A stretch of 64,000 nucleotides of DNA from Chiridota heheva (Eukaryota; Echinodermata; Holothuroidea; Apodida; Chiridotidae): NCBI GenBank assembly GCA_020152595.1, contig JAIGNY010004486.1, forward strand, positions 1,328,001-1,392,000, written 5' to 3'. The notes below the pieces were generated by a model. The model had not been told where the DNA came from, made no database searches, and saw only the letters and a list, made by a program, of their open reading frames with translations. Made by a program: the position numbers and the translations under genes. Position 1 is the first letter of the stretch; each line of letters begins with the position of its first letter. This document shows positions 1-64,000 of the stretch, piece after piece.

Positions 1-4729
<4,729 letters not shown>

Positions 4730-20389: not shown

Positions 20390-20580
20390 CCGCTCCAACT
20401 TTTCTCAAAAGTTTGAAAAGTGTCCTTTTTTTAGAGAGAAAAAAAGTTCCTTTTTTCTGAGAAAAAGGTGCCTTTTTTCAGACGGGAAAAGGCCCGTTTT
20501 ATGAAAGAAAAGTGCCTTTTTTTAGAAGGAAAAGTGCCCTTATAAAGAGGATAAAACCTTTTTAGAGAAGGCCCAGAACA
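20390..20580. repeat. Degenerate repeat with GAAAAGTGCCTTTTTT-type units
   Basis: Variants of AAAAGTGCCTTTTTTNAGA recur about six to seven times at irregular spacing of about 20-35 bases. Each unit is a near inverted repeat (purine half, pyrimidine half). No coding potential. Confidence 0.6.
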
Positions 20581-26491: not shown

Positions 26492-26641
26492 AGAGAAATA
26501 CATGTTTTTCTTGGATTTAAACATCTGTGTCAGTATTCCATGGCAGGCCGTGGAAGAATAAGAAAAGTTCTCAATGTAGCAGAAAAGAATGATGCGGCCA
26601 AGTCACTGGCAGAGTTAATGTCCCGGGGTACTTACAGGAGG
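26492..26641 (+). CDS. TOP3A: TOP3A exon with the nuclear start codon (exon 1)
   Basis: Acceptor CTTTTCACAG at 26482-26491 and donor GTAAGT at 26642. The Met at 26540 opens [20 protein letters not shown] and is the best nuclear-isoform start. The 48 bases between the acceptor and this Met are open in the same frame and begin in phase 0. An upstream exon ending in phase 0 could therefore add a mitochondrial presequence, as in vertebrate TOP3A with its two starts. The exon ends in phase 0 after Arg34. Confidence 0.9.
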
Positions 26642-32600: not shown

Positions 32601-35600
32601 TCAAGCTTACTTCACTAAACTCTATATAGCAATTACTACTATAGATGACAAGGAATTCTGTAAATTCCCTAACCCTAAAGCAAGCAGAAAGACCAAAGTT
32701 AATGTTATTGTCAGTATATCATATTTCTGTTGATGAATCTGTTTATAGGGAAAATTAACACAAAAGCTATCTGTGTGGTTAGAAGCCATTTATGACTGAA
32801 TGTAACATTCATAAACAGATAAAAGTCATTGATGCTCTAGCCTTTTATAATTTTACTCATACTGAGGATGTTAAATTTGAACAAATACTTATAATAATGG
32901 TCTTTTATTTTTAACAGAGAGAGGGATTTTCACCATACAACAAGATCTACGAGTTTGAATATGAGCTGTTTAACCAGAAATGTCCAATGGTGATGACATC
33001 AGTATCAGGGCACCTGATGAATTATGCATTCACTGCTGCTTATAAGAGTTGGTAAGCTCATGAACTGCTTTGTTGTGACATCTAGAATGAGCATAAAATG
33101 ATGAGGATACTAGTTTATTAAAGGCTCCACATAACAGACAGTGTAGACAATTTAAAGAAATGTAATAGATTTTTATCAAGTTTGACTAATGGTAATGACA
33201 TTTTATTTGTAGGTATAACCTCTGCATTTTGCTATATTTAGATACCTTAAATTTCTTTACTGTCTGGAATCAGTAAAGCTCTTATTTTGGGGTAGGAGGC
33301 AGGCTAGTACTGATCATCACAGCAGGCTAGTACTGATCATCACAGCAGGCTAGTACTGATCATCACAGCAGGCTAGTACTGATCATCACAGCAGGCTAGT
33401 ACTGATCATCACAGCAGGCTAGTACTGATCATCACAGCAGGCTAGTACTGATCATCACAACAGGCTAGTACTGATCATCACAGCAGGCAGTACTGATCAT
33501 CACAGCAGGCTACTGATCATCACAGCAGGCTAGTACTGATCATCACAGCAGGCTAGTACTGATCATCACAGCAGGCTAGTACTGATCATCACAGCAGGCT
33601 AGTACTGATCATCACAACAGGCTAGTACTGATCATCACAGCAGGCTAGTACTGATCATCACAACAGGCTAGTACTGATCATCACAGCAGGCTAGTACTGA
33701 TCATCACAGCAGAGGTGATTGGAACAAATCAAATAAATTTGTCTTACACAAGAACACACCACTGCAGATTGTTATTTGCTCAGTTTCTTGCTGCAATATG
33801 TTCCTGAGCATTAAAAGTGTTGTCGTGTTATATATACTGCCTTACTTACACCTTACATTTTTGAAACGTAAATTTTACCCTTCAGTCTTACTAACACATT
33901 TTTGGACAAATCAAAACATTTTATGCAAACATTTTCTGAAGGTAATGCTTGTGTTCTTTGCAGTTCTAAATCATACAAAAAGTGGATCCATCTGAGGGCT
34001 TTTTGACTTGCAACGAACAATTTTAATTCCTCTCTACTTTGAGAGGGGTAAATTTCAGTTTAGATCCTTCTCTTAAAGTATTAGTTTAGTGGTCAAGCAA
34101 GTTTATCTTAAATGAAAGAGGACTTTAATAGAAACAAAATGGTAAAGAAACTACTTTGATATCTTATTTTGTTAATGAAATATTCATTGTTTAAAGCTTT
34201 ATCATTTCTAAGAAGAAGTGACTGGTGTAACAAGTCTACTATGGAAGGTTGGTGCCCTCATCCTCCCATTCTTAATGTATTTTAAAGGAAATGTATTTAA
34301 CTTTTTTACTATTTAAATTATTTTTCATCAAACTTTCTTCAAATGGTAAATTATAATTACCTTTCTAGATTCTCTGACTACTTTCCCTGACATTCCCAAT
34401 GGTTTGTAAGACATAAAACCACAGGACAAAATATTATATAATACATAAAAGACTTTAAGGAATCTGACGTTATGATGTCACAACTAGTCTGATTTCAATC
34501 GTTTCTATACAGATGACACCAAACTTTAAACTTAAATAAGATTGTTGAAATCCATTTTGTTTCTTGTGAAGTCCTAATTCATGTAAACTGAAATTGCTTG
34601 ACCTCCTTTAAGCTGGAACTATTCTGGAATTTCCAGAAGTGACCACACCCACCCACTTCTGTTTTTGCACAATGCTTCTTTGTACTTATATGCAAATTTA
34701 CACTGATTGGTATGTGGTAATAGTACTGTTAGTGTTTTGTGCCATAATAAGTAACATTTTTCTTTTCCAGGAAAAGCTGCAATCCAGTGGCTTTGTTTGA
34801 TGCAGCCATTCACAAAGTTTGCCCAGATGACTACAAGAACATTAAGGTAAGTGTAAAATCCTAGCATAGGGGTACAACTTTTGGCAAAATGTGTTTCTTG
34901 TAATACAATTTTATTCAGTTCTTAAAGTAACTGAACATTTCAAAAAAAAATTGATGATGTTATAAATTTGTTTTAGATAATTGCAACTAATAATATTCTT
35001 CTTAAATTTTTGTCCTAAAGATTAAATCTTATTCAAAGAATACAAAAATAGTATAATTTAAAATAATAATGAAAGAAATGCATGGCAAACATACTTCTCT
35101 AAATAGCAAATTACTGCTATTTCAAGATTTTTCCAAAGCAAGTCACAGAAATAGACATGGAATGGATGATGAGAGGTGGCATGTTCAAGCCTTTTAGTTC
35201 AACTGGTGCAGCTGGTACTATTGCATGGGCCTATACAGCTGCAGTGCCAGTTGAAAAAGTATATAACTGGAAGGAAGGGAATATTGCATGGTTATTGACA
35301 TGAGATGATTTATGCAAACTTTATCTGTGATTATGGAGGACTGTATAAGTCCTGTGGATGCCTAGGATTTATGTATAAAACCTGTGGATGCCTATAGGAT
35401 GTATGAATAGGTCCTGTGGATGCCTAGGATTTATTGTATAAGTCCTGTGGATGCCTATGATTTATGTATAAGTCCTGTGGATGCCTAGGATTTATGTATA
35501 AGTCCTGTGGATGCCTAGGATTTATGTATAAGTCCTGTGGATGCCTAGGATTTATGTATAAGTCCTGTAGATGCCTAGGATTTATGTATAAGTCCTGTAG

Positions 35601-38600
35601 ATGCCTAGGATTTATGTATAAGTCCTGTGGATGCCTAGGATTTATTGTATAAGTCCTGTGGATGCCTATAGGATGTATGTATAGGTCCTGTAGATGCCTA
35701 GGATTTATGTATAAGTCCTGTGGATGCCTAGGATTTATATATAAGTCCTGTAGATGCCTAGGATTTATGTATAAGTCCTGTAGATGCCTAGGATTTATGT
35801 ATAAGTTCTGTGGATGCCTAGGATTTATGTATAAGTCCTGTGGATGCCTAGGATTTATGTATAAGTCCTGTGGATGCCTAGGATTTATGTATAAGTCCTG
35901 TGGATGCCTAGGATTTATGTATAAGTCCTGTGGATGCCTAGGATTTATTGTATAAGTCCTGTGGATGCCTATAGGATGTATGTATAGGTCCTGTAGATGC
36001 CTAGGATTTATGTATAAGTCCTGTGGATGCCTAGGATTTATATATAAGTCCTGTAGATGCCTAGGATTTATGTATAAGTCCTGTAGATGCCTATAGGATG
36101 TACTGTATGTATAAGTCCTGTAGATGCCTAGGATTTATGTATAAGTCCTGTGGATGCCTATGATTTATGTATAAGTCCTGTGGATGCCTAGGATTTATGT
36201 ATAAGTCCTGTGGATGCCTAGGATTTATGTATAAGTCCTGTGGATGCCTAGGATTTATGTATAAGTCCTGTGGATGCCTAGGATTTATTGTATAAGTCCT
36301 GTGGATGCCTAGGATTTATGTATAGGTCCTGTAGATGCCTAGGATTTATGTATAAGTCCTGTGGATGCCTAGGATTTATGTATAAGTCCTGTGGATGCCT
36401 AGGATTTATGTATAAGTCCTGTGGATGCCTAGGATTTATGTATAAGTCCTGTGGATGCCTAGGATTTATGTATAAGTCCTGTGGATGCCTAGGATTTATG
36501 TATAAGTCCTGTGGATGCCTAGGATTTATGTATAAGTCCTGTGGATGCCTAGGATTTATGTATAAGTCTTGTGGATGCCTAGGATTTATGTATAAGTCCT
36601 GTGGATGCCTATGATTTATGTATAAGTCCTGTGGATGCCTATAGGATGTACTGTATGTATAAGTCCTGTGGATGCCTAGGATTTATGTATAAGTCCTGTG
36701 GATGCCTGGGATTTGTATGTATAAGTTCTGTGGATGCCTAGGATTTATGTATAAGTCCTGTGGATGCCTAGGATTTATTGTATAAGTCCTGTAGATGCCT
36801 ATAGGATGTACTGTATGTATAAGTTCTGTGGATGCCTAGGATTTATGTATAAGTCCTGTGGATGCCTAGGATTTATGTATAAGTCCTGTGGATGCCTAGG
36901 ATTTATGTATAAGTCCTGTGGAAGCCTAGGATTTATGTATAAGTCCTGTGGATGCCTAGGATGTATGTATAAGTCCTGTGGATGCCTAGGATTTATTGTA
37001 TAAGTCCTGTGGATGCCTATGATTTATGTATTAGTCCTGTGGATGCCTAGGATGTATGTATAAGTCCTGTGGATGCCTAGGATTTATTGTATAAGTCCTG
37101 TGGATGCCTATGATTTATGTATAAGTCCTGTGGATGCCTAGGATTTATGTATAAGTCCTGTGGATGCCTAGGATGTATGTATAAGTCCTGTAGATGCCTA
37201 GGATTTATGTATAAGTCCTGTGGATGCCTAGGATTTATGTATAAGTCCTGTGGATGCCTAGGATTTATGTATAAGTCCTGTGGATGCCTAGGATTTATTG
37301 TATAAGTCCTGTGGATGCCTAGGATTTATGTATAAGTCCTGTGGATGCCTAGGATTTATGTATAAGTCCTGTGGATGCCTAGGATTTATGTATAAGTCCT
37401 GTGGATGCCTAGGATTTATGTATAAGTCCTGTGGATGCCTAGGATGTACTTATGTATAAGTCTTGTGGATGCCTAGAATTTAGGATTTATGTATAAGTCC
37501 TGTGGATGCCTAGGATTTATGTATAATCATGTGGATGCCTAGGATTTATGTATAAGTCCTGTGGATGCCTAGGATTTATGTATAAGTCCTGTGGATGCCT
37601 AGGATTTATGTATAAGTCCTGTGGATGCCTAGGATTTATGTATAAGTCCTGTGGATGCCTAGGATTTATGTATAGGTCCTGTGGATGCCTAGGATTTATG
37701 TATAAGTCCTGTGGATGCCTAGGATTTATGTATAAGTCCTGTGGATGCCTAGGATTTATGTATAAGTCCTGTGGATGCCTAGGATTTATTAACAAATTGA
37801 AACAAGTTTTAAATTTAAAGTATAGTGTATTCTAAAGTTCTGGAAATGGCATTTGAAGTTTTTGAGTTATGGGGAAGCTAAAAATGAGGGTTTTACAATC
37901 ATTGACAAAATTAGTGATGTATGAAGAGGACAAAACTGAAATGTTATACTTGATGATATTTTTCTTTGATTTTAGTCTTTAAAATGATGAATTTCTTTTC
38001 CAGATTCCAACTTAAAATTGATTTGGGGTACATATGGCCAACATCCCCAAATTTGTTAGAATCAGCTGCTTAGAGCTGAAAAAATGATCTACAGTTCTGG
38101 CGGTAATAACCACAAGAAAATTAGGAATTCGCAGGATGATTTTTTTTAAAGAGATTTCTTGAGTGAACAACATCAGTATGTGGTAAATATGTGCTCTAAA
38201 AATGTCCCCCATGTAATTGTGCGATTAAAAGTACATTAAATTGTGAAAGAGGGAAGTATACAAAGATGTATTCACTACATCAATATAATTTCTGTCTCAA
38301 TTTTCTCAGGAAGATTTTTGACACCTTTGTTTAGAACCATGGAAAATTTTATAATTAATTCCAACTCTGCTCATGGCCAACATCCCCAAACTTGTTAAAA
38401 TCAGCAGCTCTCATTTGAGCAAATGTAGTAAGTAGTTCATGATTGAGAAATCAGCAGCTCTCCTTTGAGCTAATGTAGTAAGTAGTTCATGATAAAGAAA
38501 TCAACAGCTCTCCTTTGAGCTAATGTAGTAAGTAGTACATGATTAAGAAATCAGCAGCTCTCCTTTGAGCTAATGTAATAAGTAGTTCATGATTAAGAAA

Positions 38601-39503
38601 TTAGCAGCTCTCCTTTGAGCTAATGCAGTAAGTAGTACATGATTAAGAAATCAGCAGCTCTCCTTTGAGAAAATGTAATAAGTAGTACATGATTAAAAAA
38701 TCAGCAGCTCTCCTTTGAGCAAATGTAGTAAGTAGTACATGATTAAGAAATCAGCAGCTCTCCTTTGAGCTAATGTAGTAAGTAGTACATGATTAAGAAA
38801 TCAGCAGCTCTCCTTTAAGCAAATGTAGTAAGTAGTACATGATTAAGAAATCAGCAGCTCTCCTTTGAGCTAATGTAGTAAGTAGTACATGATTAAGAAA
38901 TCAGCAGCTCTCCTTTGAGCAAATGTAGTAAGTAGTACATGATTAAGAAATCAGCAGCTCTCCTTTGAGCAAATGTAGTAAGTAGTACATGATTAAGAAA
39001 TCAGCAGCTCTCCTTTGAGCAAATGTAGTAAGTAGTACATGATTAAGAAATCAAGGATTCATGTAAGGAAATGGATAGGTACATACACCATACATCAGAA
39101 GTATGTAAATTAACACAGACAAATTCTCAAAGAGGTAAAATTTTCATATTTTATCCACTTTTTCAAGGATTGCTTTTTGTTATTTCCTTCGTTTTTGCTT
39201 TTGATTTTTTAAGCCATTTCCGACTGGTTAGCTCAATTGGTAGAGCACCAGCTTATCAGCCGGTAGGTCTTGGGTTAAACTCGGTTGAGTCATACCAAAA
39301 CATTAAAATGGAACCTGTAGCCCTCTCGCCTGGTGCTCAGCATAAGAGATTGGAGCAGGGTAATAGGACATGTGTGGCTGCTGCTACTTGTGCCTCCAAA
39401 GTTTCCATTGTAAAGCGCTTTGAGTTTGCATTGCACGTAGAAAAGCTCTAAATAAGAATTATGTATTATTAAAATTTTTCTATTATATTATCACTATTAA
39501 TTA

Positions 39504-39589
<86 letters not shown>

Positions 39590-42500
39590 TATTATCATCA
39601 TCATCATCATCATTATCATCATCATCATCATCATTCATTATCATCATTATTATTATTATTAATAGTATTATTATTTCATTACTGTTTTTATTAATCTATT
39701 AAATTGTTATATTGTTATTGTTTTTTGTAAACTGCTTTTTCAGAGTCATCATTATTATTATTATCATTATTATTATTATTTCACTACTGTTTTTTATTAA
39801 TCTGTAAATATGTTTTTTGTAAACTGCTTTTTCAGAGGACACTTGAAAGAGAGGTGAAGCAGTGTGATGTCCTGGTGATTTGGACAGATTGTGACAGAGA
39901 GGGTGAAAATATTGGATATGAGGTTATCGATGTCTGCACTGCTGGTGAGATGTTTAACCTTTAAAGTTAGAGAAGTTTATCTTATATGAAAGATGACTTC
40001 AAAGAAAGCATTCTTATTACCATTAGGGAGATATTTAAAAGACTAGTTCAGGGGTCAAACAAGTTTATCTTAGATGAAAGAGGATTCAAAAGATACAAAA
40101 TGGTAAAGAAAGCATTCAAAATTCTTATTCTGTTATGGACATTTTAAAGTTACTGTATCAGAAACCAAACCCCTACTTTGATTTATAAAGGGGCAGGGTG
40201 CTAGACTTGTTGAGGGGCACATTAATGCGTGCACAAAGCGCTGCATCTTTTCGGCATGGAGTCCTGGGGCCTCCTTAAGGCTCAATCCCATGGTGAAGAA
40301 GCTTTGGGATTTTAGCTATAATCATACCTCAGAATAAAACCATTCTAATAGATATTGATAAGGACCATTCATGAGCCAAACAGAACAATTGCTTACTATG
40401 CTATCATTCTGTGATCTGTATTCATGTAAGGTATTCATTTATGAGGTTAATTAAGATTAAGTTAAAAAAAAAAATATAAAATATAAACTTTTTTTCTTTC
40501 TTTCTCATGAGAGGCAGGGCAGATTCCCAGGGGAGCAGGGCAGGCCGCCTCTGTAAAACAGCAAAGCTAGGGGTCTGTGAACTGCTTTCTTCTCCCCCCC
40601 CCTCCCCTTCTCCACACTTTTTTGCTAGGTCATTTGGGTGGTAAAATTGGTAAATTATGAACATAGAATTGAATTAATTGTTAAAATTATTTCAAAGTTT
40701 GGTCAAATTTGTCAATAAATTTAGCGAAAATTGACCAAATTTTCTTCAAAAACGAAGCAAATTGCCTATAAATAAATGAAATTATCTGAAAATAGCCAAA
40801 AATTATTGACATTTCCTAAAATTGACAAAAAGATAACCAAAATGTTAAGGAAAAAGCCTGAAAATTAATACAATTTTCCTATAAAATCAAAGAAAATTAC
40901 CTGAAAATGAAGTAAAAAGTAAGAAAAATTTGGTAGAATTGTTCAAAATTTTGGTCGAATTTGTTTACAAATTTTCCAAAAATTGAGAAAAATGGCTCAA
41001 ACATGAAGAAAATTTACCAACAATTGAGAAAAATGGCCCCAAAATGATGGAAATTTCCCAAAAATGAACAAAAATTTCCCTTAAAATTTTCATAAATTTT
41101 GAGGAAAATGCCTGAACTGTTTTGAAAATTGAAAAAATTGCTCAAAAATAAACAAAATTTTCGAAAAACTAACAAAGAATTCACTGAAATATTAAGAAAA
41201 GTGCCTGGATATGAAGGAAATTTACCCAAAATGAAAGAAAATTCCCCAAAATGAAGAAAATTTTCTGAAAAAAATTTTCCAACTAACAGCAGCATCAGTG
41301 TTGGACTTTAATTTACTCCCCCTCCGAGAGATGACCCTTCCTATGCCCATGCCTACCAATATGATTGCGACTTGGTATACAAATATGAACAGATGAATGT
41401 GATGACAATCTTATTTTCGCCATTTACTTCTTCAAAAACTGCTCGCGATCCCTGTGTATGTATCATTTGTATAGAAACAACTGAAATGAGACTAGCTGTG
41501 ACATCACATCCTCAGATTCCTCAAAGCCTTTATGTATTCTAAGTTATGTTCGTGTGATTCTGTGTCTTTAAAACCATTGGAAAGTAACAAAACAGAATTT
41601 ATTAAGGGTAATTATAATTTACCACCTAAAGAAAATTTGGGAGAAATAATTTAAATAGTAAAAATAATACTTTCAATAATCCAAAAAAATAAATCATTAA
41701 GTCGTGTTTCTCAGAAAGTGAGGATACGGGGTGCTTTTGCTACACCAGTCATATCCATACAGATGATTTGATTATCTTCTGAAGAGGATAAGATATCGAA
41801 GTACTGTACATAGTTTCTTCACCAATTTGTTTGTGTTAAAGTTCTCTTCCATATAAGATGATCAAATCCACCATCAACAACCTCTCTGGTATCGACAACA
41901 TTCATATTACCCATCTTAGAATAGGTCACACTCACCTCACTCACTCCCACCTCTTTATATGCACCCCCTAACCCCTCTTCAACAATTGCCATTGGACCCT
42001 CACAATCCATCACGTTCTCCTTGCTTGCCCCTTGTACAACCTTCCCAGAGCTTCCCTCACTCCCCACAACTCAATTGCTGAGTTCTTCCAAAAAAATCCT
42101 CTGGATAAAATTATCTCTTTCCTTCATCATGCTTCCCTCTACAACCATATTTAATTCTCCTCTTCCACCCCCTCTCTACTTTGTTTTTGTTTCACCCATG
42201 CACCTCCTTTCTTGATCACAGCTTTCTGACTTTGTTCTTGAATTTCTCTCATTTTCCCCCTGTTTCCTTTCCTTCCTACCTCTAGAATGATCTGACCTCT
42301 CAGGCACAATTTGACCCTTGTTGTTGTGGTGCCGTTAAGCCCTCATCAAACAAACAAATAAGTTAAACTTGCTTGACCACTAAACTAATTCTTAAATGAC
42401 ATGCTCAGAGGACGCAACATAAACCGAACGGCAAAAAAAGTTTTGACAAATTTTGTTCTTTTGAAAAGGATAATGAATTCAAAAACTTCATACATGTTTT

Positions 42501-54500: not shown

Positions 54501-57500
54501 AGGTTAGGATATTTAACAGATAGCTCATCATCTTCACCATCACAGTATCAGGTTGGGATATTTAACAGATAGCTATCATCTTCACCATCACAGTATCAGG
54601 TTAGGATATTTAACAGATAGCTCATCATCTTCACCATCACAGTATCAGGTTAGGATATTTAACAGATAGCTCATTATCATCTTTCACAGTATCAGGTTAG
54701 GATATTTAACAGATAGCTCATCATCTTCACCATCACAGTATCAGGTTTATTTAACAGATAGCTCATCATCTTCACCATCACAGTATCAGGTTAGGATATT
54801 TAACAGATAGCTCATCATCTTCACCATCACAGTATCAGGTTAGGATATTTAACAGATAGCTCATCATCTTCACCATCACAGTATATTTAACAGATAGCAG
54901 GTTTATCATCTTCACCATCACAGTATCAGGTTAGGATATTTAACAGATAGCTCATCATCTTCACCATCACAGTATCAGGTTAGGATATTTAACAGATAGC
55001 TCATTATCTTCACCTTCACAGTATCAGGTTAGGATATTTAACAGATAGCTCATTATCTTCACCTTCACAGTATCAGGTTAGCTATATTTAACAGATAGCT
55101 CATCATCTTCACCATCACAGTATCAGGTTAGATATTTAACAGATAGCTCATTATCTTCACCTTCACAGTATCAGGTTAGGATATTTAACAGATAGCTTAT
55201 CATCTTCACCATCACAGTATCAGGTTAGGGTATTTAACAGATAGCTTATCATATTTACTATCACAGTATCAGGTTAGGATCACAGTATCAGGTTAGGCTA
55301 TTTCAGATAGTTCATATCTTCACCATCACAGTATCAGGTTAGGGATATTTAACAGATAGCTCACCATCTTCACCATCACAGTATCAGGTTAGGATATTTA
55401 ACAGATAGCTCATCATCTTCACCATCACAGTATCAGGTTAGGATATTTAACAGATAGCTCATCATCTTCACCATCACAGTATCAGGTTGGGATATTTAAC
55501 AGATAGCTCATCATCTTCACCATCACATCACAGTATCAGGTTAGGCAGATCATCATCTTCACCATCACAGTATCAGGCTATTTAACAGATAGCTCATCAT
55601 CTTCACCATAGTATCAGATATATAGGCTCATCATCTTCACCATCACAGTATCAGGTTAGGATATTTAACAGATAGCTCATCATCTTCACCATCACAGTAT
55701 CAGGTTAGGATATCTTAACAGAGGCTCATCATCTTAGTATCAGGTTAGGATATTTAACAGATAGCTCATCATCTTCACCATCACAGTATCAGGTTAGGAT
55801 ATTTAACAGATAGCTCATCATCTTCACCATCAGTATCAGGTTATATTTCAGGCTCATCATCTTTCAGGGATATTTAACAGATAGCTCATCATCTTCACCA
55901 TCACAGTATCAGGTTAGGATATTTAACAGATAGCTCATCATCTTCACCATCACAGTATCAGGTTAGGATATTTAACAGATAGCTCATCATCTTCACCATC
56001 ACAGTATCAGGTTAGGATATTTAACAGATAGCTCATCATCTTCACCATCACAGTATCAGGTTAGGCTCATCATCTTTCACAGTATCAGGTTAGATATTTA
56101 ACAGATAGCTCATCATCTTCACCATCACAGTATCAGGTTAGGATATTTAACAGATAGCTCATCATCTTCACCATCACAGTATCAGGTTAGGCTATTTAAC
56201 AGATAGCTCATCATCTTCACCATCACAGTATCAGGTTAGGATATTTAACAGATAGCTCATCATCTTCACCATCACAGTATCAGGTTAGGCTATTTAACAG
56301 ATAGCTCATCATCTTCACCATCACAGTATCAGGTTAGGATATTTAACAGATAGCTCATCATCTTCACCATCACAGTATCAGGTTAGGATATTTAACAGAT
56401 AGCTCATCATCTTCACCATCACAGTATCAGGTTAGGATATTTAACAGATAGCTCATCATCTTCACCATCACAGTATCAGGTTAGGATATTTAACAGATAG
56501 CTCATCATCTTCACCATCACAGTATCAGGTTAGGATATTTAACAGATAGCTCATCATCTTCACCATCACAGTATCAGGTTAGGATATTTAACATATAGCT
56601 TATCATCTTCACCATCACAGTGTCAGGTTGGGATATTTAAGTAGGCTATCTTTAAGAGTATTGTTTATATTGTACACGACAATAAGTTTGAACATAATTG
56701 TTCAAATTTAAAGTCACTGATCTTGATTTTTATCTTTTGGCATTCTTTTGTTACTTTTCTATTTTTGGTCCCATAACAAATGAATATTTGAATTTATTCT
56801 TGACATCATCAAAAGTAAAGTATTTACTAGTTGAATCATTAAAACTTCTCTGGCACCTTTACAATAAAAAAACTATACATTATGTGAAGTATGAACACTG
56901 GTAGAAGTAACAGTTTTGTTACCATAACCTAAACCTATCAACTGTTTAACAACATTGCAAATCAAAGTATGCATTTTGCAGCATGTTGTTGTCTTACAAC
57001 CCAACTGATAGTACAGTAAAGCATAAGGAAATTCTGGTGAGAATTCACACCAGTGAAATTACTTAAATTTGATTGGTTTATGAACAAATATTTTGAATAC
57101 AAAGTAATTCACAAAATAAAATAAATTCCACAATCTGACATTGGCATCTAAGTTTGATGCTCGAAAGAGATAATTTAGAAGATGCTGATTCAATAGATAA
57201 AAAAAATTCTCAGTGCATTATGTTGAAGCCATCAGGGACATTCTTAATGTTGTTTCAATGAATCACTTGTTGAAACATTCATTTAGTTTTCTTTCCATTT
57301 GAAATTGATCTGTGTTTTGGGGTTCAAATTATTTCCACGAAATTTTGAAAGAAAAAGATATGCATCAAAAATTGATGTCTCTAAGTTAGAAAATAAGCCA
57401 CACTCACCATAGCAATGCGGTAACTGTGTGGGGGAAACAAACCTCAAATCTGCAATCATGCAGCACCAATGCATTGACATTTAGATGTTCATGTTGCCTG

Positions 57501-60500
57501 CTGCAAGCTTTGATATATCATGTCAGATCTTCGGATCTTTAGAATTTTTAGCAAAAGGAATAAACAAAATTCCGTTTGTTCACCATTTTGGGTAACGGGA
57601 ATCGGATTTACAAAGCACATAGCGGGCCCATAGGCGCAATTTTTGTTCGCCATCTTGTCGTCACTCAGTCTGTGTGTGCAGAAATTTGTTTTGTGTAGCA
57701 TATTGCATTGACTGCATGAGAGCACGCCGCTAGCTAGCTGTACTGTACCAGTACCATGTAGGATTTTTTCCCCACTTAGATATGAAGATTTTGTTGCTTG
57801 GCAAATTTGTGCGGTGATTGGTTGAAAACGCTGTCAGTCAACTAACTCAGAGAGGTCAATTGAAGTTGTGAAACTTTTTTTAACATATCGTTTTGATGAT
57901 ACTGCTCTTATCACCTTCAGTAACACATCAAACAGAGCAGGGAGTGACTGAATTTAACTGGAAGAGGCAGCGGCTGTTCAACAGATTAGCATGCGAGGTT
58001 TTGCTGCAAGTTTGTTTGGAGGTATGCTAACTAAATTGTGATCTTTCAACTACAAAGATAGTAAGCAAACAAGTTCAAAGCAAAAAGATCTCATTTTTTA
58101 GAAGGTCACTTTTTAATACACCCACGCGATCTTTAAAATGCAATCGCTTCTAAATAGAAAAAGATATCAATATGATTTTTACACCAAATTGTTTCTTTAA
58201 TAATTCCTTTTTCATATATCTGAAAATGAAAATTCACAGGAATATTTCTTTAAAACAGTTCAAAGGTCCTGGAATGTTTCAGTCCAGGTCCTTGAAAGTC
58301 CTGAAACTTTACATCTCCACATGTGTATGAACCCTGTTTTTGCAACCAGTTGTGGTAAAAAAAATCAAATATTTGTTTTCAACTCTGTTTCAGATGAAGC
58401 ATTTATTCATGATTTAGGTGATTAGATTGTACCTTGTTTTTAAAACTATATTTCCTCTATTTTGCCACTGCATCTCTCTCATAGTATGTATTAAAGAATA
58501 ATAATCATAATCATAATAATGATAATAATAATACTCATTATAATAATCATATTCATTATAATAATAATAATCATAATCATAATAATAATTATAATTAAAT
58601 TCATAATAATGATAATGATAATATATAAAACAAATAATAATAGTAATACTGATTTCTTACATTGCGCTTTTCTATGCATGATGTGTACTCAAAGTACTTT
58701 ACACTGGTGAGTCAAATTACTCGGCAACAGCTCAAGATAAGCACTATGAACTTGAGTGGAGCAGAATTATATATGCTGGACACTGCAGTCTGTATGCTGG
58801 ACACTGTGCAGTCTGTATGCTGGACACTGTGCAGTCTGTATGCTGGACACTGTGCAGTCTGTATGCTGGACACTGTGCAGTCTGTATGCTGGACACTGTG
58901 CAGTCTGTATGCTGGACACTGTGCAGTCTGTATGCTGGACACTGTGCAGTCTGTATGCTGGACACTGTGCAGTCTGTATGCTGGACACTGCAGTCTGTAT
59001 GCTGGACACTGTGCAGTCTGCATGCTGGACGCTGTGCAGTCTGTATGCTGGACGCTGTGCAGTCTGTATGCTGGACACTGTGCAGTCTGTATGCTGGACG
59101 CTGTGCAGTCTGTATGCTGGACGCTGTGCAGTCTGTATGCTGGACACTGCAGACTGTATGCTGGACACTGTGCAGTCTGCATGCTGGACACTGTGCAGTC
59201 TGTATGCTGGACGCTGTGCAGTCTGTATGCTGGACACTGTGCAGTTTGTATGCTCTGTGCAGTCTGTATGCTGGACACTGTGCAGTCTGTATGCTGGACA
59301 CTGTGCAGTCTGTATGCTGGACACTGCAGACTGTATGCTGGACACTGTGCAGTCTGTATGCTGGACACTGTGCAGTCTGTATGCTGGACACTGTGCAGTC
59401 TGTATGCTGGACGCTGTGCAGTCTGTATGCTGGACACTGCAGTCTGTATGCTGGACACTGCAGACTCTATGCTGGACACTGTGCAGTCTGTATGCTGGAC
59501 GCTGTGCAGTCTGTATGCTGGACACTGTGCAGTCTGTATGCTGGACACTGTGCAGTCTGTATGCTGGACACTGTGCAGTCTGTATGCTGGACACTGTGCA
59601 GTCTGTATGCTGGACACTGTGCAGTCTGCATGCTGGACACTGCAGTCTGTATGCTGGACACTGTGCAGTCTGTATGCTCTGTCTGTATGCTGGACACTGG
59701 ACTGGACTGTGCAGTCTGTATGCTGGACACTGTGCAGTCTGCATGCTGGACACTGTGCAGTCTGTATGCTGGACACTGTGCAGTCTGTATGCTGGACACT
59801 GTGCAGTCTGTATGCTGGACACTGTGCAGTCTGTATGCTGGACACTGTGCAGTCTGCATGCTGGACGCTGTGCAGTCATTTTTGCTGAGAGTACATTTGA
59901 ATCCTTTTATCAAAATTAAAACTTAAACATAATTATTTAAACATACGTTGTGATAGTTTTTACTATTTATTATAAAAGATAAGATATTCTTTCATTTCAG
60001 GAACCACTGGCCAAAGTAGTAGATGTTAGAAGTCGCAACAAAAGTAAATGGCGGCCGTTACCAATGGATACTGTAGTAAGTGATCCTAATGAAGAAAATC
60101 AATCAATTAAATTAAACGTAAACTTCATGTGAGAAAACAGTTTGAAATTAAGTCTGCATCAACGTTAGGAATAAATGTTGGTTTGTTTCTTTTATTTTGG
60201 GTGACCTATTATGACCTTTTGCTGAAAAATGATAATTATGTATCAAATAATTAGTAACATGCTAATGAGAGAACTTAAGGTACGAGGTTGGTTGTTAAGC
60301 ACCCTGAGCATTATTTATGGTGAATACTGGCACTTTACAAGAACACTGATTGAGTTGTTATTATCTAAGGTACTATCACTGATCCATCACGGGCTGGAAG
60401 ATAGTGGGCATCTTTGATTCAACCTGTCATATGGGAATGTGTACACTGTAAGTCAAATGACTTGCCAGGTTGCCTGAGATATCACACAACTAATAATTAA

Positions 60501-63500
60501 GAACAAACACTAAGTATTCTATTTGATTTCAGTTGTATCTTTACCTCTGTTAATGAGATTATGTTTTTGCCAGTTGGATTTAAAATGATTTGTTATCAAT
60601 GAACGTATGGAAAAGAGAGGTAAATGCGGGTTTCTGAGACATCACTTGTAAGAAATGTGTACTCTAGTGTGTGCCGTGTATCACTTGTAAGAGATGTACT
60701 GTAGTGTGTGCCCTGTATCATTTGTAAGAGATGTGTACTCTAGTGTGTGCCCTGTATCACTTGTAAGAGATGTACTGTAGTGTGTGCCCTGTATCACTTG
60801 TAAGAGATGTACTCTAGTGTGTGCCCTGTATCACTTGTAAGAGTCATGTACTCTAGTGTGTGCCTTGTATCACTTGTAAGAGATGTACTCTAGTGTGTGC
60901 CCTGTATCACTTGTAAGAGATGTGTACTCTAGTGTGTGCCGTGTATCACTTGTAAGAGATGTGTACTCTAGTGTGTGCCCTGTATTACTTGTAAGAGATG
61001 TGTACTCTAGTGTGTGCCCTGTATTACTTGTAAGAGATGTGTACTCTAGTGTGTGCCCTGTATCACTTGTAAGAGATGTGTACTCTAGTGTGTGCCCTGT
61101 ATCACTTGTAAGAGATGTGTACTCTAGTGAGTGTGTGCCCTGTATCACTTGTAAGAGATGTGTACTCTAGTGTGTGCCCTGTATCACTTGTAAGAGATGT
61201 GTACTCTAGTGTGTGCCCTGTATTACTTGTAAGAGATGTGTACTCTAGTGTGTGCCCTGTATTACTTGTAAGAGATGTGTACTCTAGTGTGTGCCCTGTA
61301 TCACTTGTAAGAGATGTACTGTAGTGTGTGCCTTGTATCACTTGTAAGAGATGTACTCTAGTGTGTGCCCTGTATCACTTGTAAGAGTCGTGTACTCTAG
61401 TGTGTGCCTTGTATCACTTGTAAGAGATGTACTGTAGTGTGTGCCGTGTATCATTTGTAAGAGATGTGTACTCTAGTGTGTGCCTTGCATCACTTGTAAG
61501 AGATGTACTGTAGTGTGTGCCGTGTATCATTTGTAAGAGATGTGTACTCTAGTGTGTGCCCTGTATCACTTGTAAGAGATGTGTACTCTAGTGTGTGCCC
61601 TGTATTACTTGTAAGAGATGTGTACTCTAGTGTGTGCCCTGTATCACTTGTAAGAGATGTGTACTCTAGTGTGTGCCCTGTATCACTTGTAAGAGATGTG
61701 TACTCTAGTGTGTGCCCTGTATTACTTGTAAGAGATGTGTACTCTAGTGTGTGCCCTGTATCACTTGTAAGAGATGTGTACTCTAGTGAGTGTGTGCCCT
61801 GTATTACTTGTAAGAGATGTGTACTCTAGTGTGTGCCCTGTATCACTTGTAAGAGATGTGTACTCTAGTGTGTGCCCTGTATCACTTGTAAGAGATGTGT
61901 ACTCTAGTGTGTGCCCTGTATCACTTGTAAGAGATGTGTACTCTAGTGTGTGCCCTGTATTACTTGTAAAGATGATGTACTCTAGTGTGTGCCCTGTATC
62001 ACTTGTAAGAGATGATGTACTCTAGTGTGTGCCCTGTATCACTTGTAAGAGATGTACTCTAGTGTGTGCCCTGTATCACTTGTAAGAGATGTGTACTCTA
62101 GTGTGTGCCCTGTATCACTTGTAAGAGATGTGTGCTCTAGTGTGTGCCCTGTATCACTTGTAAGAGATGTACTGTAGTGTGTGCCGTGTATCACTTGTAA
62201 GAGATGTGTACTCTAGTGTGTGCCCTGTATTACTTGTAAGAGATGTGTACTCTAGTGTGTGCCCTGTATCACTTGTAAGAGATGTGTACTCTAGTGTGTG
62301 CCCTGTATCACTTGTAAGAGATGTGTACTCTAGTGTGTGCCCTGTATTACTTGTAAGAGATGTGTACTCTAGTGAGTGTGTGCCCTGTATCACTTGTAAG
62401 AGATGTACTCTAGTGTGTGCCCTGTATCACTTGTAAGAGATGTACTCTAGTGTGTGCCCTGTATCACTTGTAAGAGATGTGTACTCTAGTGTGTGCCCTG
62501 TATCACTTGTAAGAGATGTACTCTAGTGTGTGCCCTGTATCACTTGTAAGAGATGTACTCTAGTGTGTGCCCTGTATCACTTGTAAGAGATGTACTCTAG
62601 TGTGTGCCCTGTATCACTTGTAAGAGATGTGTACTCTAGTGTGTGCCCTGTATCACTTGTAAGAGATGTGTACTCTAGTGTGTGCCCTGTATTACTTGTA
62701 AGAGATGTGTACTCTAGTGAGTGTGTGCCCTGTATCACTTGTAAGAGATGTGTACTCTAGTGTGTGCCCTGTATTACTTGTAAGAGATGTGTACTCTAGT
62801 GTGTGCCCTGTATTACTTGTAAGAGATGTGTACTCTAGTGTGTGCCCTGTATCACTTGTAAGAGATGTGTACTCTAGTGTGTGCCCTGTATCACTTGTAA
62901 GAGATGTGTACTCTAGTGTGTGCCCTGTATTACTTGTAAGAGATGTGTACTCTAGTGTGTGCCCTGTATCACTTGTAAGAGATGTGTACTCTAGTGAGTG
63001 TGTGCCCTGTATTACTTGTAAGAGATGTGTACTCTAGTGTGTGCCCTGTATCACTTGTAAGAGATGTACTGTAGTGTGTGCCTTGTATCACTTGTAAGAG
63101 ATGTACTCTAGTGTGTGCCCTGTATCACTTGTAAGAGATGTACTCTAGTGTGTGCCTTGCATCACTTGTAAGAGATGTACTGTAGTGTGTGCCGTGTATC
63201 ATTTGTAAGAGATGTGTACTCTAGTGTGTGCCCTGTATCACTTGTAAGAGATGTGTACTCTAGTGTGTGCCCTGTATTACTTGTAAGAGATGTGTACTCT
63301 AGTGAGTGTGTGCCCTGTATCACTTGTAAGAGATGTGTACTCTAGTGAGTGTGTGCCCTGTATCACTTGTAAGAGATGTGTACTCTAGTGTGTGCCCTGT
63401 ATCACTTGTAAGAGATGTGTACTCTAGTGTGTGCCCTGTATCACTTGTAAGAGATGTGTACTCTAGTGAGTGTGTGCCCTGTATCACTTGTAAGAGATGT

Positions 63501-64000
63501 GTACTCCAGTGTGTGCCCTGTATTACTTGTAAGAGATGTGTACTCTAGTGAGTGTGTGCCCTGTATCACTTGTAAGAGATGTGTACTCTAGTGTGTGCCC
63601 TGTAGTGTTACGTTTGGTTTCCATATTGATTCCTTTCCATCATGATTTTCTCCCTTCTTCAAGGAATTAGAGAAACTGTCTTCTCGGAAGTTGCGCATCA
63701 GTGCCAAAGAAACAATGAAAATTGCTGAAAAACTTTACACTCAGGGGTAAGAATTTGTTATTATTAAATTATATTAATAATTGTCAAGAAAGTCCTCTTT
63801 CATATTACATGATATGACCACTGAACTAATCTTTTAATCATATCACATGGTATGACCACTGAACTAATCTTTTAATCATATCACATGATATGACCTCTGA
63901 ACTAATCTTTTAATCATATCACATGATATGACCACTGAACTAATCCTGTAATCACCTCTTAGTGATTTTCATGTTTTTGTTTTTTTCCTTTGCAGATACA
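26540..64000 (+). CDS. TOP3A: DNA topoisomerase III alpha, 5' part (exons 1-10, partial)
   Basis: Type IA topoisomerase that passes single strands through a transient 5'-phosphotyrosine break. With BLM and RMI1/2 it dissolves double Holliday junctions, and an isoform decatenates mitochondrial DNA. The coding exons, counted from the Met at 26540, are 26540-26641, 32918-33051, 34771-34846, 39836-39944, 42749-42800, 46021-46283, 57921-58021, 60001-60075, 63664-63746 and 63996 onward. All have GT donors and AG acceptors and join without a frameshift into 333 codons. The Toprim domain shows Glu15 in VAEKNDAAK and DCDREGEN with Asp122, Asp124 and Glu126. Later blocks include [47 protein letters not shown] and [13 protein letters not shown]. 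The window ends at G-Y-I, so the catalytic Tyr should be residue 336, just outside. Introns are up to 11.6 kb and full of repeats; the exons are clean, which argues for an active gene. Confidence 0.95.
27127..27143. repeat. (TA)n microsatellite
   Basis: About eight TA dinucleotides followed by poly-T, inside the 5' part of the LINE in TOP3A intron 1. Confidence 0.9.
28395..28490. repeat. Tandem duplication of about 45 bp between LINE gag and endonuclease
   Basis: ACCTTCAGAACATCCACAGA, continuing TCTCCCATCAACCAACACAA, occurs twice in direct succession. A smaller duplication (CACCTCAACAGAG) lies just upstream. Confidence 0.85.
32291..32917 (+). other. End of TOP3A intron 1
   Basis: AT-rich sequence with a G-rich run near 32560-32590, ending in the acceptor TTATTTTTAACAG. 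Nothing else recognised. Confidence 0.6.
32918..33051 (+). CDS. TOP3A: TOP3A exon 2
   Basis: Encodes [20 protein letters not shown] and [16 protein letters not shown], ending in a split Trp codon (phase 2). The KIYEF and TSVSGHL segments are conserved Toprim-domain sequence of type IA enzymes. Acceptor TTTTAACAG, donor GTAAGC. Confidence 0.95.
33300..33712. repeat. 23-bp minisatellite, about 18 copies, TOP3A intron 2
   Basis: The unit is CAGGCTAGTACTGATCATCA plus CAG. Copies are nearly identical. Two lack a few bases (about 33487 and 33508) and three share an A-for-G variant (CACAACAGG), so they form sub-families. The unit contains the palindromes AGTACT and TGATCA side by side. Confidence 0.95.
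34073..34611. mobile_element. Inverted-repeat element, AGGATTAG family, copy 3
   Basis: It starts TTAAAGTATTAGTTTAGTGG, then TCAAGCAAGTTTATCTTA, and ends TTGCTTGACCTCCTTTAA. The interior shares AGAGGACTTTAATAGAAACAAAATGGTAAAG with copies 2 and 4. It is non-coding and sits in TOP3A intron 2. Confidence 0.75.
34771..34846 (+). CDS. TOP3A: TOP3A exon 3
   Basis: Completes the split Trp codon and encodes [20 protein letters not shown] then YKNIK. Vertebrate TOP3A has the same W-x-SCNP-x-x-LF arrangement. Acceptor TTTTCCAG, donor GTAAGT, ends in phase 0. Confidence 0.95.
34847..35341 (+). other. Start of TOP3A intron 3
   Basis: AT-rich sequence with no recognised feature up to the start of the 30-bp array. 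Confidence 0.6.
35342..37790. repeat. 30-bp minisatellite, about 80 copies, TOP3A intron 3
   Basis: The consensus unit is TTTATGTATAAGTCCTGTGG plus ATGCCTAGGA. Variant units (TAGATG for TGGATG; TTATTG with one extra base; CTATAGGATGTA) recur in ordered blocks. For example, the block from 35641 is repeated from 35944, a 303-base shift. As 30 is a multiple of three, one plus frame reads a [10 protein letters not shown] decapeptide over and over, and a minus frame reads [10 protein letters not shown]. These frames are by-products of the repeat, not genes. Confidence 0.97.
37800..38384 (+). other. TOP3A intron 3 between two arrays
   Basis: AT-rich sequence. The phrase TGGCCAACATCCCCAAA-TTGTTA-AATCAGC occurs at 38034-38070 and again at 38374-38405, where it leads into the 50-bp array. 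The array seed therefore lies in a small duplicated segment. Confidence 0.6.
38396..39052. repeat. 50-bp minisatellite, about 13 copies, TOP3A intron 3
   Basis: The unit is AAATCAGCAGCTCTCCTTTG, then AGCAAATGTAGTAAGTAGTA, then CATGATTAAG, with point variants (GCTAATG/GCAAATG, TTCATG/TACATG). The first units are the most diverged, the later ones nearly identical. Confidence 0.95.
39218..39478 (+). mobile_element. tRNA-derived SINE, TOP3A intron 3
   Basis: GGTTAGCTCAATTGGTAGAGC (A box) and GGTCTTGGGTTAAACTC (B box with one change from GTTCRANYC) form a tRNA-like head of about 70 bases. A body follows, then a tail GTAAAGCGCTTTGAGTTTGC...AGCTCTAAATAAG that resembles the 3' end of the LINE fragment at 9715-9785, then an ATT microsatellite. 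This is the usual structure of a SINE that uses LINE machinery through a shared tail. Confidence 0.8.
39479..39782. repeat. (ATT)n/(ATC)n microsatellites
   Basis: Long ATT runs, then ATC runs, then mixed ATT/ATC with short interruptions. It directly follows the SINE tail and probably grew from it. Confidence 0.95.
39836..39944 (+). CDS. TOP3A: TOP3A exon 4 (Toprim acidic motif)
   Basis: Encodes [20 protein letters not shown] then [16 protein letters not shown], ending in phase 1. It carries the DxDxE triad (Asp122, Asp124, Glu126 counted from the Met at 26540) that binds Mg2+ in type IA topoisomerases. Acceptor CTTTTTCAG, donor GTGAGA. Confidence 0.96.
40690..41285. repeat. AT-rich degenerate array of about 30-35 bp units
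   Basis: Variants of AAAATGAA-AAAATTTNCCNAAAAATGA recur throughout, with almost no G/C except short CC or GG steps. The minus strand reads a loose periodic GxF/NF pattern over 93 codons, a by-product. It lies inside MITE copy 4. Confidence 0.65.
41815..42360 (+). mobile_element. 3' end of an I-clade-like LINE
   Basis: About 545 bases match the last part of the copies ending at 45540 and 49793 (for example AAATCCACCATCAACAACCT and ACAACCTTCCCAGAGCTTCC, and the end GGTGCCGTTAAGCCCTCATC followed by AAACAAACAAA). It starts downstream of the RNase H domain, so it has no enzyme. Plus strand. Confidence 0.88.
42749..42800 (+). CDS. TOP3A: TOP3A exon 5
   Basis: Only 52 bases. After a split Val codon it encodes [16 protein letters not shown] and the first two bases of a Gln codon. 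RARFSEITP is a hallmark just downstream of the Toprim domain in TOP3A/TOP3B. Acceptor TTCTTGATAG, donor GTAAGT. Confidence 0.95.
42801..43938 (+). other. TOP3A intron 5 before the LINE
   Basis: Includes a GT-rich and poly-G microsatellite stretch at about 42915-43010. Otherwise AT-rich with no recognised gene or repeat. Confidence 0.55.
43939..45549 (+). mobile_element. I-clade-like LINE copy with internal deletion, TOP3A intron 5
   Basis: Flanked by TAATTTTGTGA at 43939-43949 and 45539-45549, a likely target-site duplication. The 5'-truncated copy starts in the N-terminal part of the reverse transcriptase. At about 44243 it jumps from the segment around HQSG to a point about 0.95 kb further on, so the RT core, including the YADD box, is missing compared with the copy at 46745. 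The 344-codon frame 44297-45331 covers the RNase H domain: YTDGS (44537-44551), IFSDFKAV and [18 protein letters not shown]. The catalytic Glu in SAEAKA is Lys here. It ends GGTGCCGTTAAGCCC plus a CAAA tail. Confidence 0.85.
46021..46283 (+). CDS. TOP3A: TOP3A exon 6
   Basis: At 263 bases the largest TOP3A exon here. It completes the split Gln codon, then encodes [52 protein letters not shown] and [10 protein letters not shown], ending in phase 1. The GAAFTRFQT and GSCQFPTLG blocks are diagnostic of TOP3A and form part of the domain around the active-site gate. Acceptor TGCCATCAG, donor GTAGGA. Confidence 0.96.
46596..46670 (+). mobile_element. Degenerate tRNA-like sequence (Leu/Ser-type length)
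   Basis: AGTTAAGGCGATAGGCTTCA, then a longer middle, then TATGTTCGAATCCCGCCAGA. The B box GTTCGAATCCC is perfect. The A-box half is partly eroded and the long middle suggests a type II tRNA ancestor. No convincing acceptor stem; a SINE or pseudogene. Confidence 0.5.
46745..49793 (+). mobile_element. I-clade-like LINE copy, about 3 kb, TOP3A intron 6
   Basis: 5'-truncated after the endonuclease. It starts with [20 protein letters not shown] (about 46782), the linker before the reverse transcriptase. RT blocks: [19 protein letters not shown] (about 47410), [15 protein letters not shown] (47478 on), SPHQSGF, and a catalytic box read as LTDDF (Asp pair at 47916-47921) where YADD/YVDD is normal. 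RNase H follows with YTDGS (48792-48806), SAEAKA and IFSDSKAV, then a frameshift before the last motif. The 3' end is GGTGCCGTTAAGACCTCATC plus (CAAA)n. At least several frameshifts; inactive. Confidence 0.87.
49794..51497 (+). other. TOP3A intron 6, unrecognised
   Basis: AT-rich sequence. At 50880-50945 a motif AGATATCCAGGT/AGATATTCAGGC of about 18 bases repeats three to four times. Otherwise nothing recognised. Confidence 0.5.
51596..56640. repeat. 49-bp satellite array, about 100 copies, TOP3A intron 6
   Basis: The consensus unit is AGGATATTTAACAGATAGCT, then CATCATCTTCACCATCACAG, then TATCAGGTT. The central units are nearly identical. The left edge (51596-52080) and a part on the right (about 54300-56100) contain truncated, fused or shuffled units. 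The left edge also contains pieces of the neighbouring unique DNA. The high homogeneity points to recent amplification; some irregular units may be assembly errors. Confidence 0.97.
56641..57920 (+). other. TOP3A intron 6, last part
   Basis: AT-rich, with a slightly more CG-containing patch at 57570-57740. No supported gene. It ends in the acceptor TTATCACCTTCAG. Confidence 0.5.
57921..58021 (+). CDS. TOP3A: TOP3A exon 7
   Basis: Completes a split Val codon and encodes [20 protein letters not shown] then [13 protein letters not shown], ending in phase 0. The open-reading track alone would miss it because it is short. It was found by searching for the FNWKR-x-RLF block expected between exons 6 and 8, and it joins both neighbours in phase. 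Acceptor CACCTTCAG, donor GTATGC. Confidence 0.95.
58495..58640. repeat. (ATA/ATC)n low-complexity tract
   Basis: Runs of AATAATAATCATAATAATG with no longer period. The poly-Ile and poly-Met/Ile frames over it on both strands are not genes. Confidence 0.95.
58774..59876. repeat. 23-bp minisatellite, about 47 copies, TOP3A intron 7
   Basis: The unit is GTCTGTATGCTGGACACTGT plus GCA. Variants include a version without GT-GC (CACTGCAGTCTG), GACGCTG for GACACTG, and CTGCATG for CTGTATG. The unit has no stop codon in any frame on either strand and its length is not a multiple of three. All six frames are therefore open for 150-400 codons; none is a credible gene. It is unrelated to the other 23-bp array at 33300. 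Confidence 0.97.
60001..60075 (+). CDS. TOP3A: TOP3A exon 8
   Basis: 75 bases, phase 0 at both ends, encoding [20 protein letters not shown] then PMDTV. VEVRS-x-x-KSKWRP in vertebrate TOP3A is the counterpart. Acceptor TTTCATTTCAG, donor GTAAGT. Confidence 0.96.
60076..60630 (+). other. TOP3A intron 8 before the array
   Basis: AT-rich, nothing recognised. Confidence 0.55.
60640..63605. repeat. 39-bp minisatellite, about 75 copies, TOP3A intron 8
   Basis: The common unit is GTATCACTTGTAAGAGATGT then GTACTCTAGTGTGTGCCCT. Length variants are 37 bp (AGATGTACTCT) and 43 bp (AGTGAGTGTGTGCC), with TATTAC and TGTAGTG base variants. The order of variant units repeats in blocks. The array ends about 60 bases before exon 9. 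A reading frame of [13 protein letters not shown] repeats is a by-product of 39 being a multiple of three. Confidence 0.97.
63664..63746 (+). CDS. TOP3A: TOP3A exon 9
   Basis: Encodes [20 protein letters not shown] then AEKLYTQ and the first two bases of a Gly codon (phase 2). SAKETM[19 protein letters not shown] is the approach to the active site in TOP3A. Acceptor CCTTCTTCAAG, donor GTAAGA. Confidence 0.96.
63778..63955. repeat. Tandem copies of the AGGATTAG-family right end
   Basis: A 38-bp unit TGACCACTGAACTAATCTTT, then TAATCATATCACATGATA, occurs about four times. TGACCACTGAACTAATC is the right terminal repeat of the MITE family (compare 10808 and 42373). The left part (GTCAAGAAAGTCCTCTTTCATAT) matches the family's inner arm. 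Confidence 0.75.
63996..64000 (+). CDS. TOP3A: TOP3A exon 10, first 5 bases
   Basis: After the acceptor TTTCCTTTGCAG the bases ATACA complete Gly332 and give Tyr333 and the start of an Ile codon, as expected for the GYISYPRTE block. The catalytic tyrosine codon should lie 2 codons further on. Confidence 0.85.

Follow-up and report, generated by a model that had tools for sequence, protein, structure and literature searches.

In animals, introns are rarely the region in which tandem repeats are densest, and in Daphnia pulex repeats with units >8 bp stand at a much lower level in introns than elsewhere, according to the published account (PMC3152781). In lancelets, two reports describe mirages, that is, tandem copies of intron/exon boundaries, in Adh3, globins, troponin C and PGBD5; the Adh3 mirage units measure 10-72 bp, and the mirages are reported without disturbed splicing (PMC3087553, PMC3902484). 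The intronic minisatellite CeRep25B of C. elegans has been linked to alternative splicing (PMC4039745). It forms one family near alternative exons, whereas the arrays of TOP3A described here, although also intronic, have units that differ. With regard to mechanism, fill-in by CST/Pol alpha-primase at breaks is described as making small tandem duplications (PMC8355091); such fill-in would supply founder duplications of arbitrary sequence, and is proposed here for the first step only. The TOP3A arrays of the holothurian Chiridota heheva resemble ordinary animal minisatellites or VNTRs in their units (10-240 bp), interspersed variants and local origin, but differ from them in that half of the TOP3A intron DNA is array. 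A literature search of partial coverage found no animal with a comparable intronic minisatellite load, which is no proof of absence.

The TOP3A arrays are real but not specific to TOP3A, and their interest lies in the pattern at the level of the genome. Very probably they are a sample of a widespread in-situ amplification of minisatellites, heaviest in introns and largely neutral, which needs nothing in TOP3A. Under this explanation, short stretches of the 1.1-Gb genome would be amplified in place, each array having its own unit, and the amplified DNA would be whatever was present, unique or within old dispersed repeats. Introns would bear the heaviest load, with arrays tolerated up to the splice signals. 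The first step would be an ordinary small tandem duplication, through break fill-in and end joining or through template slippage; gene conversion or unequal exchange of several units at a time would then raise the copy number, largely neutrally, and TOP3A itself would contribute nothing necessary.

The window is a stretch of 64,000 nucleotides of contig JAIGNY010004486.1, and 100 kb were examined on each side of it, giving a locus of 264 kb; positions are counted from the first base of the window, and negative ones lie upstream. Toprim and Topoisom_bac domain matches in the window identified the gene as TOP3A, and the top PDB match was human TOP3A (4cgy, 6.8e-38; TOP3B, 2e-21). Exons were mapped by tblastn with a human TOP3A query, and the last two were located through the zinc-knuckle CGICGEQG/HTRRTC and splice sites. 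The gene extends from 26,540 to 137,648 (111 kb, 23 exons), continuing 74 kb past the window end with a similar array density there. On the plus strand, exon 1 with the coding start lies at 26540..26641 (in tblastn, 68% identical to residues 3-35 of human TOP3A, with a GT donor next), followed by exon 2 (32918..33051) and exon 3 (34772..34848), by exon 4 with the Toprim motif (39836..39943, from a domain match and the human mapping) and by exon 5 (42748..42800). Exon 6 (46022..46282) rests on a domain match, a PDB match and the human mapping, and exons 7 (57921..58021), 8 (59990..60075, its 3' end placed by eye) and 9 (63664..63746) on the human mapping, as do exons 2, 3 and 5. Upstream, five non-overlapping human-unkempt exon matches and PDB match 5elh identified unkempt; the unkempt stretch is taken here as -100 to -22.9 kb and may include some intergenic DNA. 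Between unkempt (minus strand) and TOP3A (plus strand) there is an H3.3-like histone gene with an intron (3405-3782 and 4568-4726, plus strand); H3.3 and unkempt are presumably neighbours in the human genome as well. TMF1 lies downstream of TOP3A. Rfam models matched nothing within the window, and a single tRNA was found when 140 kb of flanking DNA were scanned. A search of the assembly for the COX1 family gave no match.

Arrays were called with Tandem Repeats Finder (TRF), and those of >=150 bp were counted. A preliminary description of the window, made from the letters alone, had reported six arrays in introns 2, 3 (twice), 6, 7 and 8, covering about 12-13 kb and sharing no sequence. TRF agreed with their positions and unit lengths and the human TOP3A exon mapping with the intron numbers, and the arrays summed to 12,617 bp out of 30,306 bp. 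They are a 23-bp x18 array in intron 2 (33299..33712), a 30-bp x80 array with 15 distinct variants among its 80 units (35342..37789) and a 50-bp x13 array (38398..39053) in intron 3, a 49-bp array with an irregular start in intron 6 (51612..56640; 96 units parsed, from 52052 onward), a 23-bp x49 array in intron 7 (58772..59877), which stops 113 bp short of exon 8, and a 39-bp x76 array in intron 8 (60641..63604), which stops 60 bp short of exon 9. An array absent from the preliminary description (38 bp x4, 63800..63954) occupies most of the 249-bp intron 9. The six units are indeed without common sequence, none of them having two or more 9-mers in common with any other unit on either strand, and one spreading satellite was rejected as a source since units were almost without common 9-mers. 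In the whole gene, arrays of >=150 bp occur in 17 of the 22 introns (introns 1, 4, 5, 14 and 16 have none), arrays make up 52% of the intron DNA (56,013/108,510 bases), and the biggest, of 10.6 kb (50 bp x204), lies in the last intron. With head-to-tail units of about 7 to 100 or more bp, these arrays are minisatellites. The introns also hold C-rich fragments, named by eye as non-LTR-type retroelements, with reverse-transcriptase-like frames at 27000-31900, 43900-45400 and 46700-49800.

The preliminary description had ascribed the arrays to a property local to TOP3A, in comparison with the DNA at 1-26 kb, which it took to be without any array longer than about 100 bp. No single TRF row there reaches 100 bp, although two overlapping rows at 20416-20538 together span 123 bp; this comparator, however, is an unusually array-poor stretch. 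From -22.9 to 26.5 kb, the intergenic DNA upstream of TOP3A has one 334-bp array in 49 kb (0.20 arrays/10 kb, 0.7% array; binomial p 0.0001 vs surroundings). The 264-kb locus as a whole contains 57 arrays of >=150 bp, which make up 29% of its bases, and of 234 sliding windows of 30 kb, 89, many of them overlapping TOP3A, equal or exceed the reported stretch. In number, arrays are as dense in the unkempt stretch (2.85/10 kb) as in TOP3A (2.70/10 kb), and intergenic DNA downstream of TOP3A has 2.79/10 kb, a value from only 4 arrays in 14 kb; the 7 kb readable at the start of TMF1 contained none. By bases, TOP3A is the highest of the stretches measured (50% vs 25% in the unkempt stretch) because of a few giant arrays. 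Arrays thus grow longer in TOP3A than in unkempt, a point against the general process proposed here.

Beyond the locus, the assembly was sampled on a blind grid with 66 tiles of 500 or 2,000 bases, several per contig and seven on the window's own contig. Among the 61 readable tiles, 13 touched an array, and 5,840 of 39,500 bp (15%) were array; the values were 10/39 tiles and 16.5% of bases (bootstrap 7.5-25.8%) on contigs >=100 kb, and 3/22 tiles and 10.3% of bases on contigs <100 kb. As an intron control, MutS_V exon matches were used to mark the introns of two MutS-family genes, in which ten blind 200-bp probes were placed. Seven of the ten fell in arrays, representing at least five separate arrays with units of 62 bp (two probes 2 kb apart), 24 bp, 37 bp, 24 bp and 21 bp (two probes 2 kb apart). 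Thus, as far as two more genes allow, a similar load exists elsewhere, an observation of the kind that the preliminary description had named as refuting its proposal, and the idea of a property local to TOP3A was not supported. The genome-level pattern is drawn from a single locus of 264 kb together with 61 tiles and ten probes, and the intron controls are the two further genes and unkempt.

On this sampling, introns look richer in arrays than the genome at large. It is possible, if rather doubtful, that a transcription- or intron-linked process, such as R-loops, transcription-replication conflict or splicing-linked breaks, forms arrays in introns genome-wide. The intron figures (TOP3A 52%, the unkempt stretch 25%, 7/10 probes) exceed those of the 49-kb intergenic stretch (0.7%) and the tiles (15%), and probes differ from tiles with a Fisher p of 0.004, the probes being partly dependent and amounting to about five separate arrays in two genes. 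Several observations nevertheless speak against such a process. First, there was no sense-strand skew, G exceeding C in 17/30 TOP3A arrays and 13/22 unkempt-stretch arrays. Second, the intergenic DNA downstream of TOP3A equals introns in arrays/10 kb, and a 10-bp array with a proven single-copy forerunner, described below, is intergenic. Third, tiles low in CpG, which stand in roughly for methylated gene bodies, were 12% array vs 17% for high-CpG tiles. Finally, five TOP3A introns, as listed above, are array-free.

Little is documented of the birth of minisatellites, because the state before expansion can rarely be observed. In this locus, old dispersed repeats provided such a state. The 49-bp array of intron 6 adjoins the left part of an old dispersed repeat (50975..51584, plus strand), which has a paralogous copy near -4.7 kb, and the right part of the repeat follows the array (56641..56778, plus strand; matching -2993..-2959 and -2927..-2835). 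For the left part, 40 copies were scored from 710 candidates. In the further copy at -4.86 to -2.84 kb, a 10-bp unit is present 33 times at -4.7 kb, in intergenic DNA, while a reading by eye shows a single CTGCTACGCC at the equivalent point of the intron-6 copy. The 49-bp array, in turn, is missing from the -4.86 kb copy, where about 0.94 kb of unrelated sequence is found instead. The two copies of this repeat therefore carry different arrays at different points. The second case is the 7-kb array of intron 17, with a basic unit of 63 bp (72% identity at lag 63) and about 110 units. Two paralogues, at 111.5 kb and -70.9 kb, each have this unit once between matching flanks (identity 49/64 and 48/64; scores of 46 and 43 vs null maxima of 29 and 26), and alignments with one unit were best (221 vs 160 and 142; 167 vs 130 and 129) when compared with none or two units. 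Judged from these paralogues, the local birth of arrays is seen directly twice (33x 10 bp; ~110x 63 bp). The intron-17 element (98500-106100), in which the 63-bp centre is amplified to 7 kb, has flanks that are mutually inverted (110/139 identical), and looks like a palindromic MITE. At a candidate empty site for the 30-bp array of intron 20, a single unit was not significant (score 20 vs null 95% of 26).

An alternative is that arrays arrive already formed, inserted at many sites as satellites or by transposons, which we regard as unlikely. When 16 arrays were compared with the whole assembly, relatives on other contigs were found for at least 2. The 127-bp (2 x 63) array has them on at least seven other contigs with ~82-84% identity, which suggests that either one segment was amplified in several copies or arrays moved, and the 49-bp unit of intron 6 recurs as a second array at C3169:202780-204392 (84-97% identity). 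By contrast, 5/16 matched at their own place only. The 50-bp array of intron 3 and the 39-bp array of intron 8 were found at their own place only, among the matches listed, and the intron-2 array had full-strength matches at its own place only, with weak ones (66-75%) on contigs C2792 and C3641. Members of a 24-bp minisatellite family (TGGGATGCCATGTGGGACATGGGG with its variants) lie at several loci, among them -94333 and 125684, so not every array is private. In addition, a dispersed repeat borders the 49-bp array on the left, and for 28 of the 57 arrays a flank recurs elsewhere in the sequence compared. Against insertion of whole arrays stand the paralogous repeat copies with one unit and no array, the two copies of one repeat with different arrays at different points, and the lack of common sequence among most units. 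The independent expansion put forward in the preliminary description is supported for most arrays, which look like separate expansions of different sequences; two of them have single-unit, array-free paralogues.

Amplification in place would also need no special property of the units, and little was found in common among them. A comparison of 5-mers and 6-mers in 57 units with matched non-array DNA revealed no shared motif (top z 2.8/4.5, below null 95% maxima of 4.1/5.9), and no folding bias was detected across 54 units (mean z -0.26, Wilcoxon p 0.20), among which three were unusually foldable, including the palindromic 38-bp unit at 63800. A G-rich hypervariable minisatellite with a core motif was rejected in the absence of strand skew and of a common core. 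The CpG content of the TOP3A units is low: CpG occurs in 2/30 of them, where G+C-matched draws from the unique intron DNA of the gene predict 14.1 (0/400 draws as low), and CpG observed/expected is 0.045 in TOP3A arrays vs 0.34 in the gene's non-array DNA. In the unkempt stretch, 12/22 units have CpG vs 11.9 expected. Old methylated DNA would be the simplest cause of the CpG-poor TOP3A units, though the background includes unmasked repeats. CpG decay inside the TOP3A arrays was rejected as the cause, there being no excess of CpG-making minority variants (15/184 columns vs 64/430 other A/T>G/C columns), and low CpG was likewise rejected as an indicator that DNA is rich in arrays: rho was -0.46 in the 264 kb (56 windows), but the relation did not hold in blind tiles.

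A driver specific to TOP3A, be it an origin, a fork stall, a recombination hotspot or the function of the gene, is very improbable. No other stretch measured does reach the array fraction of TOP3A, and the units of this gene are nearly CpG-free, but neighbouring stretches equal it in array number and the introns of two other genes have arrays. R-loops, fork stalling or a recombination motif found no backing, as no consistent skew, motif or folding signal was present. An assembly artefact is the least credible explanation of all, for although two arrays are uniform throughout (39 and 18 copies), the many interspersed variants of most parsed arrays would not be the product of collapse or stutter errors and arrays occurred on every large contig group sampled.

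Returning to amplification in place, the variants indicate how arrays may have grown. Apart from the two arrays in which all units are identical, most parsed arrays have many interspersed variants (e.g. 15/80 and 35/286 units). In the 30 parsed arrays taken together, adjacent units were hardly more similar than distant ones, with clear exceptions at -27479, -65781 and 120496. This pattern argues for multi-unit growth or array-wide homogenisation over step-by-step slippage. Edge divergence was rejected as a sign of unequal exchange, as the result was mixed, edges being more diverged than the core in 11/30 arrays.

In introns 9, 19 and 8, an array and the acceptor are separated by 42, 47 and 60 bp, respectively, and such close approach, together with the near filling of a 249-bp intron, is as expected if splice signals alone restrain arrays. 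One of the 30 TOP3A arrays overlaps an exon. This 18-bp array of 61 copies (+73073-74197) repeats CATAG/GTATGT 46 times, from the exon-13 donor onward, and when exon 13 is extended by 30 bp, 38 bp of it match the array with 100% identity. Its unit contains both an intron/exon boundary and a splice signal, and in repeating the exon-13 donor it is like the lancelet mirages. It differs from those in having 61 copies and in being the only one of the 30 TOP3A arrays to overlap an exon. Because 23 of the 46 repeated donors precede the first in-frame stop, use of a later donor would add up to ~177 residues in frame at HGIG/TDATH. We tentatively consider, without holding it probable, that continuing intron-biased amplification may have made minisatellites a main ingredient of introns genome-wide, turning single-copy stretches of 10-60 bp into tens or hundreds of copies and sometimes engulfing splice sites; in TOP3A, this would have produced 46 equivalent donors and, if these are used, in-frame repeats in the catalytic core.

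The old dispersed repeats of this genome form natural before/after pairs, with one unit in one copy vs 33 or ~110 in another, and the genome holds thousands more copies. If the intron load holds genome-wide, it would make this animal a good system for studying why arrays accumulate in introns and how splicing survives them.
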